NCBI GenBank assembly: GCA_018057825.1
Contig: JAGPCY010000014.1
Coordinates: 1-64,000, forward strand
Reading direction: 5' to 3'
Source of the DNA: Kofleriaceae bacterium
GTDB lineage: Bacteria; Myxococcota_A; Polyangia; Haliangiales; Haliangiaceae
Length of the DNA stretch: 64,000 nucleotides
The notes beneath the pieces were generated by a model. That model saw only the letters and a program-made list of their open reading frames with translations. It ran no database searches and was not told the origin of the DNA. A program made the position numbers and the translations under genes. Of the stretch, positions 23,417 to 27,108 are shown piece by piece. Each line of letters begins with the position of its first letter. The first letter of the stretch is position 1.

Positions 23417-24781
23417 TCAAGCGCCGGGGCGGGTGGTGCGGGCGGTGGCCCGCGGCGCCGCTGAGCGGGCAGTGCGCAGTCGATGGTCGAGGTCGGGCGC
23501 CGGGGTGAAGACGAACGCCCGTCCGTCCTGGTGCTTGAGCAGCCAGCCGCGCTCGGCGAGGGCGAGGAGGTCGGTGCGCGCGGTCTGGTAGGTCACGCCC
23601 TGGCTAGTGCGGTGCGCGTCGATCGTGAACTCAGCGTCGGCGCTGCGCACGGCCTTGGCCAGGAGCTGGCGTTGGCGGCGGTTGACCCCGCGCACGCCGC
23701 GAAGCAGTACGTCGATCGACCTGACCTCGTTGGCCTTGCGCCGCACGTAGGCGAACACGTCCTCGATCGCCCGGCGCACGATCTGGAGCTGGTACAAGAC
23801 GAAGTAGGTCGCGTCGTGCGTCGACTCGCTACGCACATAGGAGCGCGCGTACTGAGCGCGCGCTTTGTTGAGCAGGCGCGAGATCGAGATGAACTCGGTC
23901 AGCCAGTAGCCCTCGCGCAGCATCTGCCAGTAGAACACGGCCCGCGCCGTCCGGCCGTTGCCGTCGACGAACGGGTGATCGAAGCCGATCCAGAAGTGCA
24001 GGAGGATCGCGCGGACGACCGGGTGCAGGAAGCCCTCAGGGACCTCCCCGGCGGCGAAGCGCCCTAGCATCGCCAGGCGCTCCGGCAGCGAGTCGGCCGG
24101 TGGAGGCGTGTGGACGACCTCGCCGCTCGCGACGTCGATGACCCGAACATCCTCGTCCGCTCGGCGGAAGCGGCCCGCATCGTCAGCCGGGAGGGTGCCC
24201 GCGACCACGACGCGATGGAGCTCCTGCACCGCCTTCGGCGTGATGGGCTGGTGTTGATGCTCGCGCACCCACTCCATCGCGCGGTAGTTGCTGAGGATCA
24301 TGCGCTCGCTGTCATTGCGCGGCGGGCGGCCCTTCGCGAGCATCTCCTTGGCCGCTCGCCGGGTGGTCGACGCACCTTCGAGCTGACTCGAGGTGATGGC
24401 CTCCTCCATCAGGCCGGCGACGACGTAGCGATCCCGGGTCGCCGGGTTGGTGACCGGCTCCGGCAGCTCGATGCGCCCGCTCGCGTCGCGATCGATCGTG
24501 TGGACCAGGCGCCGGAGCGAGTCGGGGTTGGAGATGCCGAAGCTCGTGCCCCGGTCCTCTAGCGGGAGCGACACCGAGGTGGCGTGGCGGGCGCTCAAGA
24601 GCGAAAGCCACCACTCGTCCCGGGACAGCCCGGCCGGTGGCGTTCGGTAGGCCAGATCGTCCCAGTGGTAGTACTCCCCGTCGACCTCGGGCCGCCCTGT
24701 GAAGAGGCGCTGGGCTCGCTCGCTGGTGAGGTCCAACCCTCTGAGAAGACTCGGGAACGTGGGAGGGTTCGCCGCCTTCAT
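23417..24781 (-). CDS. Fic-domain protein, class II (probable AMP transferase)
   Basis: This encodes 454 residues. The Fic motif HPFVDGNGRTAR (about 266-277) is complete, with catalytic His. The N-terminal inhibitory helix has SSQLEGA (about 130-136), matching (S/T)xxxE(G/N), so the enzyme is self-inhibited until Glu is displaced. A C-terminal winged-helix-like region (TYQTARTDLLALAERGWL) is common in Fic regulators. Class II Fic proteins AMPylate or deAMPylate proteins. Host target is unknown. An AT-rich inverted repeat 44 bases upstream may be its operator or promoter. Confidence 0.9.
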   Translation of the reverse strand: MKAANPPTFPSLLRGLDLTSERAQRLFTGRPEVDGEYYHWDDLAYRTPPAGLSRDEWWLSLLSARHATSVSLPLEDRGTSFGISNPDSLRRLVHTIDRDASGRIELPEPVTNPATRDRYVVAGLMEEAITSSQLEGASTTRRAAKEMLAKGRPPRNDSERMILSNYRAMEWVREHQHQPITPKAVQELHRVVVAGTLPADDAGRFRRADEDVRVIDVASGEVVHTPPPADSLPERLAMLGRFAAGEVPEGFLHPVVRAILLHFWIGFDHPFVDGNGRTARAVFYWQMLREGYWLTEFISISRLLNKARAQYARSYVRSESTHDATYFVLYQLQIVRRAIEDVFAYVRRKANEVRSIDVLLRGVRGVNRRQRQLLAKAVRSADAEFTIDAHRTSQGVTYQTARTDLLALAERGWLLKHQDGRAFVFTPAPDLDHRLRTARSAAPRATARTTRPGA

Positions 24782-24824: not shown

Positions 24825-24852
24825 ACTACTAATTTATATGTGAATTAGTAGT
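24825..24852. promoter_or_regulatory. AT-rich inverted repeat upstream of fic
   Basis: Arms ACTACTAATT and AATTAGTAGT are perfect complements flanking TATATGTG. It lies between the APH-kinase stop (24857) and the fic start (24781). A regulator binding site or promoter is more likely than a terminator, since the stem has few G-C pairs and no U tract. Confidence 0.55.
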
Positions 24853-24856
24853 TGGC

Positions 24857-25912
24857 CTACAGGCGGCCGGCATCGATCGCCCGCGCCGCCTGCTCGGACA
24901 GCGCCTTGACGCCGTGGATGAAGATCGCGAAGCGCGGATCCGTGGTCAGGCCCTTGGCGAACCGGTAGTAGATCTGCTGGGCGACCACCGCGGTCTTCCA
25001 CAGCCCGTAGGCGTAGTAGAAGACCGCGTCCTCGACCGCGCGGCCGCTGACCGCGACGTAGCGGGCCAGCACCTCGGCCCGCGTCATCATGCCCGGCAGG
25101 TGGGTGAGGCCGAACCGCAGCATGTGCATCGGCTGCGCGTCGTTGGCCTCGACCCAGTAGCCGAGCGAGGTCCCGAGGTCCATGCGCGGATCGCCGAGCG
25201 TCGCCATCTCCCAGTCGAGGACGCCGACCACCTGGGTCAAGCCGCGATCGAAGATCAGGTTGTCGAACTTCCAGTCGTTGTGGAGGAGCGCCGGCGGACC
25301 GTCGGCCGGCTGATGGGCCGCCAGCCAGGCCGCGACCTCGTCGACCACCGGCAGCTCGTCGGTGCGCGACCCGGCGTAGCGCTCGGTCCAGCCCGCGACC
25401 TGGCGCCCGACGTACCCGGCCGGCTTGCCCAGCCCGGCCAGGCCCACCGCCGCGAAGTCGACCGCGTGGAGCTCGGCCAGGGCGTCGATCAGGAGCTCGC
25501 ACAGCCGCCGGTTGGTGGCGGCGTCGAGGGCGAGGTCGGTCGGCACGTCCTTGCGCAGGATCACGCCGTCCTTCTGCTCCATCAGGTAGAACGTGCAGCC
25601 GAGCACGGCGTCGTCGGTGCACAGCGCGATCGGGCGCGGGGCCTTGGGGTAGACCGGGGCCAGCGCCGACAGCACGGTGTGCTCGCGGCCCATGTCGTGA
25701 GCGGTCTTGACCTTGGAGCCGAAGGGCGGTCGGCGCAGGACGAAGGCCTCGGCGCCGCGCGTGATCTGGTAGGTCAGGTTGGAGTGGCCGCCCGGGAACT
25801 GCAGCACCTCGACCGGCGCGTGGCCGCCGAGGACGCCGTCGAGCCAGGCGCCCAGGGCGCCGGCGTCGAGCTCCTCACCGCGACGCGGCGGCCGCGGTCC
25901 GCCGACCGTCAC
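24857..25912 (-). CDS. APH-type kinase, ACAD10/11 N-terminal-domain-like
   Basis: This encodes 351 residues from a GTG that overlaps the acyl-CoA dehydrogenase stop (GTGA). The aminoglycoside-phosphotransferase fold has [10 protein letters not shown] near the N-terminus, the catalytic loop [11 protein letters not shown] and the metal-binding [12 protein letters not shown]. In ACAD10/ACAD11 this domain is fused to an acyl-CoA dehydrogenase and phosphorylates 4-hydroxyacyl-CoA. In Pseudomonas levulinate use the two are separate proteins (LvaA, LvaC). The adjacent dehydrogenase makes the same role probable here. It is not an antibiotic-resistance gene by these criteria. Confidence 0.87.
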
Positions 25913-27108
25913 GCCGCGCCTCCGTGCTTGGCCAGCAGGCGCTTGGCCACGACCATCTTGTGGACCTCGTCGGGGCCATCGTAGATGCGCGCGCCGCGCT
26001 CGTGGACGTAGTAGTGGGCCAGGAGCGTGTCGCTGGTGACGCCCAGCGCGCCGTGGACCTGGATCGCGCGATCGATCAACCGCATCATCACGTCGGCGAC
26101 GTAGAACTTGATGATCGACACCTGATCGCGGGCGGCGTGGAAGCCGCGGTGCTCGATGGTCCACGCCGCGTTGAGCGTCAGGAGGCGCGCGGCGTCGATC
26201 TCGGCCCGGGCCTCGGCGATCCAGGCCTGGATCACCTGGCGGCTGGCCAGGGTCTTGTCGGGGGCGATCTTGCGGGCGGCGGCGCGCGCGCACATGAGCT
26301 CGAACACCCGCTCGCAGATGCCGATCCACCGCATGCAGTGGTGGATGCGGCCAGGGCCGAGGCGCTCCTGGGCGATCAGGAAGCCGGCGCCCTCGGGGCC
26401 GAGCAGGTTGGCGACCGGCACCCGGCAGTCGCGGTAGCGGATCTCGCCGTGGCTGGCCCAGCCGGCGCCGGCGTCGCCCATGATCGGGATGTTGCGCACC
26501 AGCTCGAAGCCAGGCGTGTCGGTCGGCACGATGATCATCGACGCGCGGGCGTGGGGCGCCGCGCTCGGGTTGGTCACCGCCATGACGATCGCGAAGGCCG
26601 CGCCGTCGGCGCCGGTGGTGAACCACTTGTGGCCGTCGATGACCCAGTGATCGCCGTCCTTGGTCGCGGTACACGACAGCATCGTTGGGTTCGACCCGGG
26701 GTTGTCGGGCTCGGTCATCGAGAAGCAGCTCCGCAGCTCACCGGCGGCCAGGGGCATCATCCACCGCGCCTTCTGCTCCGGGCTGCCCCACTTGTGCAGC
26801 ACCTCGAGGTTGCCGGCGTCGGGCGCCTGACAGCCGAAGGCGTAGTGGCCGAGCGGCGAGCGACCGAGGCGCTCCGACACCAGCGCGTGATCGACCAGGC
26901 CCAGGCCAAGCCCACCGACGTCCTTGGGGAGCTGCGGGCCCCACAGCCCGGCGGCCTTGACCGCGGCGCGCAGCTCGTCGAGGAGCGGGCCGGCCGCGGC
27001 GAACCCGCGGGCCAGGACCTCGGCCTCGGCCGGGATGATGCGGTCGGTGAGCAGGCGGTCGACGCCGTCGAGGATCGGGGTCAGGTGGGCCGGGGTCGAG
27101 AAGTCCAT
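25909..27108 (-). CDS. Acyl-CoA dehydrogenase, ACAD11/LvaC-like
   Basis: This encodes 399 residues. The flavin fold is typical: [27 protein letters not shown] and the C-terminal [13 protein letters not shown] and YDGPDEVHK. The last motif is characteristic of the ACAD10/11 branch. Together with the overlapping APH kinase it would convert 4-hydroxyacyl-CoA into an enoyl- or 3-hydroxyacyl-CoA for beta-oxidation. ATG 27108 is preferred: the earlier start has no homologous sequence. It is divergent from a pirin gene, 96 bases apart. Confidence 0.9.

Follow-up and report, generated by a model that had tools for sequence, protein, structure and literature searches.

The window analysed here, a stretch of 64,000 nucleotides from a Kofleriaceae bacterium, carries an acyl-CoA dehydrogenase (ACAD) gene and an APH-family kinase gene, both of which very probably encode enzymes converting 4-hydroxy fatty acids to ordinary fatty-acid breakdown products. 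The gene pair probably constitutes a minimal module of two translationally coupled enzymes, through which 4-hydroxy fatty acids would enter beta-oxidation. The gene structure, the residues, the relationships, the conserved pairing and the natural fusions described below are direct observations.

The features of the pair are collected in Table 1. On the minus strand, the junction between the two genes reads GCGGCGTGACGG. The sequence-only reading had described a separate ACAD and kinase overlapping by GTGA, and direct reading of the minus strand confirmed this. A point absent from that description is the gene order: the ACAD comes first and the kinase second, whereas in ACAD10/11 the domains follow each other the other way round. 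We infer from the overlap that translation of the two genes is coupled. Pfam assigned the ACAD protein (P0002) to the acyl-CoA dehydrogenase domain families and the kinase protein (P0001) to APH (PF01636, E 5e-52). The 8.9-Mb genome encodes no other close relative of the ACAD (of 14 matches, the runner-up has 32% identity), and no second match to the kinase was found in this genome at E <= 0.001. The neighbouring genes encode a pirin (upstream, on the other strand), a Fic protein and an aconitase; none belongs to the lva set, and no acyl-CoA ligase, SDR or (histidine) phosphatase gene is adjacent to the pair. A perfect palindrome, ACTACTAATT-8-AATTAGTAGT, is located between the kinase stop and the Fic-domain gene, 43 bases before the Fic ATG, and appears operator-like. 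Its core, TACTAATT-8-AATTAGTA, occurs once in the genome and was absent from the other 143 genomes of the window's class in an exact search; the Fic gene and the palindrome site may therefore be a recent arrival.

Table 1. Positions in the window of the ACAD and kinase genes, their diagnostic residues and adjoining features.
Feature	Position	Strand	Description
ACAD gene	25909..27108	minus	399 aa, ATG at 27108, TGA at 25909
ACAD gene product	25909..27108	minus	Homologue of LvaC and of the ACAD domain of ACAD11, predicted to convert 4-phosphoacyl-CoA to 2-enoyl-CoA (Pfam, PDB match, tree, residues)
APH-family kinase gene	24857..25912	minus	351 aa, GTG start at 25912, end at 24857
Kinase gene product	24857..25912	minus	Predicted 4-hydroxyacyl-CoA kinase (Pfam, PDB match, tree, predicted fold)
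4-base overlap GTGA	25909..25912	minus	Kinase start GTG and ACAD stop TGA
ACAD segment	26329..26364	minus	R249, R254, H257, C258, M259, R260, equivalent to mouse ACAD11 R626, R631, H634, C635, M636, R637
ACAD catalytic aspartate D377	25978..25980	minus	Equivalent to mouse ACAD11 D753, in IYDGPDEVH
Kinase catalytic aspartate D213	25274..25276	minus	Equivalent to mouse ACAD11 D220, in HNDWKFDN
Kinase R170	25403..25405	minus	Equivalent to mouse ACAD11 R176
Palindrome	24825..24852		Operator-like
Fic-domain gene	23417..24781	minus	

In mouse ACAD11, the 4-phosphate is bound by R626, H634 and R637 and catalysis is carried out by D753, and non-conservative changes of the three phosphate-binding residues caused the strongest disruption of the ACAD step, according to PMC12440821. 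We examined these positions in an alignment of 174 ACAD rows, 172 of which were grouped by their best tblastn match; the groups omit L178 and also L013, which duplicates the window. The equivalents of R626, H634, R637 and D753 are present in all 58 window-type ACADs (window included), in all 96 ACADs of the LvaC/ACAD11 type and in all 6 other relatives. The 12 conventional ACADs, ten of which come from the window's own genome, have none of the four. The cysteine of the HCMR motif is replaced by A, S or T in L054, L086, L136, L157, L162 and PDB entry 4hr3, with H and R kept, so that this cysteine seems not to be essential to the motif. In the kinase, the equivalents of R176, D220 and N225 are present in 152 of 152 rows, R176 of mouse ACAD11 being a CoA contact in the published model (PMC12440821). 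At the site of kinase R86, the Arg of an Arg-Glu pair is invariant in 19 rows.

Comparison with the PDB by sequence gave ACAD11 as the best match of the ACAD (E 1.5e-91), the first conventional ACAD following at 2.1e-44. The kinase matched 9o56 (E 7e-89), 3dxp (1e-46) and 9fsg (7e-13), and the ACAD11 kinase domain is also among its nearest relatives. The predicted kinase fold (pLDDT 90.4) is closest to 3dxp (Z 32.1, rmsd 2.6 over 317 residues), and the 25-hydroxysteroid kinase 9fsg is second (Z 26.4, 23% identity). The ACAD11 entry 8v3v ranks 16th (Z 20.1 over 229 residues, 29% identity), and 9o56 is not among the 50 matches listed. Judged by the predicted fold alone, the 25-hydroxysteroid kinase outranks the ACAD11 kinase.

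By analogy with published work on ACAD10/11 and LvaA/LvaC, the kinase would phosphorylate the 4-hydroxyl of a 4-hydroxyacyl-CoA in an ATP-dependent step. The FAD-bound ACAD would then strip the phosphate through transient FAD oxidation, elimination and re-reduction, leaving 2-enoyl-CoA. The kinase and ACAD of B. pseudomallei are able to substitute for those of ACAD10 in vitro, as reported in passages of PMC11342911. The phospho-acyl-CoA route put forward in the sequence-only reading, with a putative 4-hydroxyacyl-CoA kinase and a phosphate-eliminating ACAD, is supported by the active-site residues, the conserved pairing and the nearest PDB relatives. To our knowledge, no enzyme of the window-type ACAD branch has been assayed. 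Because levulinate genes are not adjacent, the source of the substrate is perhaps gamma-lactones or 4-hydroxy acids derived from oxidised or prey lipids.

The relationships of both proteins were analysed in trees of 43 rows (ACAD) and 40 rows (kinase), with mouse ACAD11 as the only eukaryotic member, ACAD10 being left out; quick trees of 78 and 65 rows gave the same main branches. We designate as lva-type, by gene order, the operons that join a kinase and an ACAD to an SDR and a histidine phosphatase, and these stand in for P. putida LvaA and LvaC. Passages of PMC6692424 report an operon with these four genes in P. citronellolis, with 59% identity to LvaA and 78% to LvaC. In the ACAD tree, mouse ACAD11 and the LvaC-type proteins form one branch (18 rows, 100/100). 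The other branch (16 rows, 100/98) holds the window together with further genomes of the class, one protein from a Gemmatirosa plasmid and one from Acidobacteriota. Together with two weakly placed actinobacterial-plasmid proteins, both branches (36 of the 43 rows, 100/98) stand apart from conventional ACADs; the wider ACAD branch comprises 40 rows (100/100). Joining the window branch and mouse ACAD11 in one clade was rejected (p-AU 7.6e-9), and strict sisterhood of the window and ACAD11/LvaC branches was neither supported nor rejected (p 0.25). The window ACAD shares 43% identity with mouse ACAD11, compared with 50-58% for five LvaC-type ACADs. On sequence grounds, it represents a separate branch neighbouring LvaC/ACAD10/11 and found mainly in the window's class.

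In the kinase tree, the window groups with the kinases of lva-type operons (30 rows, 100/99); one set of relatives comprised the best 80 of 590 that were confirmed, with an Ideonella kinase as the reference for the ranking, so that this set is weighted towards the Ideonella type. A separate branch (9 rows, 100/99) contains 3dxp and the kinase of ACAD11. The constraints for the AU tests were the free-tree group of 18 rows and the 30-row group: placing the ACAD11 kinase inside the window's own 18-row group was rejected (p 2.2e-4), whereas a basal position to all 30 rows, as their nearest neighbour, was not rejected (p 0.11). The window kinase is 45-47% identical to lva-type operon kinases and 29% identical to mouse ACAD11, compared with 38-44% for three ACAD11-type kinases. 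The sequence-only reading had named a position of either protein outside the ACAD10/11-LvaA/LvaC clades as evidence against it. The kinase does group with our gene-order counterparts of LvaA; the ACAD lies next to the ACAD11/LvaC-type clade and not within it.

A window-type ACAD (E <= 1e-110) is present in 117 of 317 genomes of the class, and in 77 of the 178 genomes with a completeness of 90% or more and a contamination of 5% or less. We examined 117 of the 119 places where it occurs, leaving out a fragment in G092 and one of two copies in G242. The kinase lies directly downstream of the ACAD in 77 of the 117 loci, fusions included. The two genes overlap by 4 bases in 53 of them, by 1 base in 2 and otherwise in 1; a gap of up to 50 bases separates them in 5, the distance is larger or undetermined in 12 (one kinase start among these being undetermined), and the last 4 are one frame. 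Such conservation shows that the arrangement is not due to chance. At the remaining 40 loci, the kinase is on the other strand (14), upstream (1) or not found in the stretch (25). One of these 25 is the second ACAD copy of G065, whose first copy has a kinase. Among the 24 genomes behind the 25 loci, 20 encode a related kinase at another site, with 47-59% identity in 13 genomes and 33-38% in 7, and none was found at E <= 1e-20 in the other 4.

A single family, f16, accounts for all 14 loci whose kinase is on the opposite strand, and these have 3dxp as the best match of the kinase; the three f16 kinases included in the trees fall into the ACAD11 kinase branch and their ACADs are window-type. At an Acidobacteriota locus (L081), a window-type ACAD adjoins an lva-type kinase. 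Window-type ACADs are therefore partnered by either kinase branch, which suggests a common intermediate for both. The kinase frame of L081 (6007-10053) extends to about 1348 aa, and a further C-terminal fusion is possible. The second ACAD copy of G065 (L155) groups with the L081 protein, which suggests transfer between phyla. On a Tistrella plasmid (L179, 4501-6767), the gene after an ACAD of the LvaC/ACAD11 type is annotated as encoding an HPr kinase/phosphorylase, and the stretch carries no APH kinase annotation.

In four of the 117 loci (L027, L031, L036 and L151), ACAD and kinase are fused in frame, the ACAD forming the N-terminal part. The aligned ACAD and kinase parts are separated by 72-111 bases, which differ in each of the four. 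These fusions come from unfinished multi-contig assemblies and are known from the assemblies, not from reads; their junctions hold no remnant of the overlap, which disfavours a simple frameshift error. Other long frames (G042, G069, G176, G192, G198, G225, G240, G277 and G308) proved not to be ACAD-kinase fusions when their loci were examined. We mapped the junction on a tree of 72 of the 77 downstream-kinase loci, L147 and L159 being left out by choice and three others for short matches. In most of the rows (53 of 72) the two genes overlap, 50 of them by 4 bases. Fusion requires three changes and the starred branches force three, gain and loss being indistinguishable on this tree. We found no published report of ACAD-first fusions in a search that left subscription literature largely outside its scope, and none in the passages of PMC11342911 and PMC12440821. 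We tentatively propose that the window's class is the centre of a distinct, uncharacterised branch of 4-phosphoacyl-CoA enzymes whose pocket differs from the one in ACAD11/LvaC. In this branch the overlapping pair would have been fused about three times, with the domains in the opposite order to those of animal ACAD10/11. Nature would then have repeated the animal fusion, which would suggest that it is important to link the two steps, in whichever order the domains stand. Of all the results, the reverse-order fusions were the least expected.

The two ACAD branches are separated by 15 positions, and 13 positions were looked at closely; W638, Y752, F711, E746 and N514-P515 (ACAD11 numbering) are among those that differ. 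All 58 window-type ACADs have a tryptophan after HCMR and a tyrosine before the catalytic aspartate, whereas the ACAD11/LvaC branch has other, mostly smaller residues there. Both adjoin published active-site residues, and the chain length or the hydroxyl position of the substrate may differ from that of ACAD11/LvaC. These differences are the starting point of the main rival explanation, that the pair follows the same phosphorylate-then-eliminate logic on another hydroxylated substrate, such as one with the hydroxyl elsewhere on the chain, an acyl-CoA that is branched or cyclic, or the side chain of a steroid. The similarity in fold to the 25-hydroxysteroid kinase, second in the search, points the same way. 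However, the four phosphate-handling residues are all unchanged, the kinase sequence is far nearer to 9o56 and 3dxp than to 9fsg, and the association of window-type ACADs with kinases of either branch argues for one substrate class. Moreover, W638 occurs in 5 and Y752 in 4 of the 6 outlying relatives, and the tyrosine also in 7 of the 12 conventional ACADs. The ACAD11/LvaC branch is thus possibly the changed side, and the two residues may be old features rather than signs of a new specificity. We consider a different substrate unlikely.

The conversion of 4-hydroxy fatty acids also has to be weighed against readings closer to named systems. The sequence-only reading had likened the pair to an unfused ancestor of animal ACAD10/11: the two functions lie side by side, the HCMR motif is common to both, and a basal position of the ACAD11 kinase to the combined lva and window group is compatible with the AU test (p 0.11). 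This comparison found no support, since grouping with mouse ACAD11 was rejected for the ACAD (p 7.6e-9) and placement in the window's group for the ACAD11 kinase (p 2.2e-4), the gene order is reversed, and identity to mouse ACAD11 is lower for the window (43% and 29%) than for LvaC-type ACADs and ACAD11-type kinases. A true unfused ancestor is thus extremely improbable, and the window proteins look like cousins of the fused enzymes. Levulinate-like substrates, also suggested in that reading, would agree with the grouping of the kinase with lva-type operon kinases. Against levulinate catabolism by true LvaA/LvaC orthologues, the ACAD lies outside the LvaC-type branch and the pair lacks an adjacent SDR, ligase or histidine phosphatase. 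P. putida LvaA works together with LvaB, which we take to be the DUF6285 family; DUF6285 had no match in the window's own genome, and the control was found in 2 of 14 genomes. With neither an adjacent lva companion nor an LvaB-family match in the genome, levulinate proper is very unlikely. The Pfam names alone would allow an ordinary ACAD beside an antibiotic-resistance-like APH of unrelated function. The diagnostic residues, the conserved order and overlap and the fusions make this virtually untenable, and the score against the APH(3') family was 23 bits for a cut-off of 205. An antibiotic kinase was rejected on the residues, the conserved pairing and this weak score.

The window pair thus appears, with good support from sequence, to be a conserved two-enzyme module whose mechanism is deduced from known enzymes; the branch is new, of a kind already known. 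Animal enzymes were given a role in the breakdown of 4-hydroxy acids via a phospho-intermediate as recently as 2024-2025. The neighbouring bacterial branch, in which the two genes may overlap, lie apart or be fused and, among relatives, the same ACAD adjoins different kinases, provides a natural series in which one can ask whether kinase-ACAD coupling is required and what determines the substrate range. It also cautions against taking ACAD-kinase adjacency for the ancestor of the animal fusion.

Compared with known systems, the window pair shares with ACAD10/11 the same two activities, as predicted here, and the equivalents of R626, H634, R637 and D753 in the ACAD and of D220, N225 and R176 in the kinase. 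ACAD10/11 is one chain with the kinase before the ACAD, whereas the window has separate genes with the ACAD first. Relative to mouse ACAD11, the member compared here, the window ACAD lies in another branch and the kinase is nearer to lva-type kinases. The 25-hydroxysteroid kinase has a related fold and, according to the title of entry 9fsg, phosphorylates a hydroxylated substrate, but its sequence match to the window kinase is weak (23% identity, E 7e-13). The lva operon of P. putida and its P. citronellolis variant, as described in passages of PMC6692424, likewise encode a separate kinase and ACAD, and the window kinase groups with the lva-type kinases. In contrast to the lva operon, here represented by gene order, the window pair has no LvaB family match and no SDR, ligase or phosphatase neighbours, and its ACAD belongs to the neighbouring branch.
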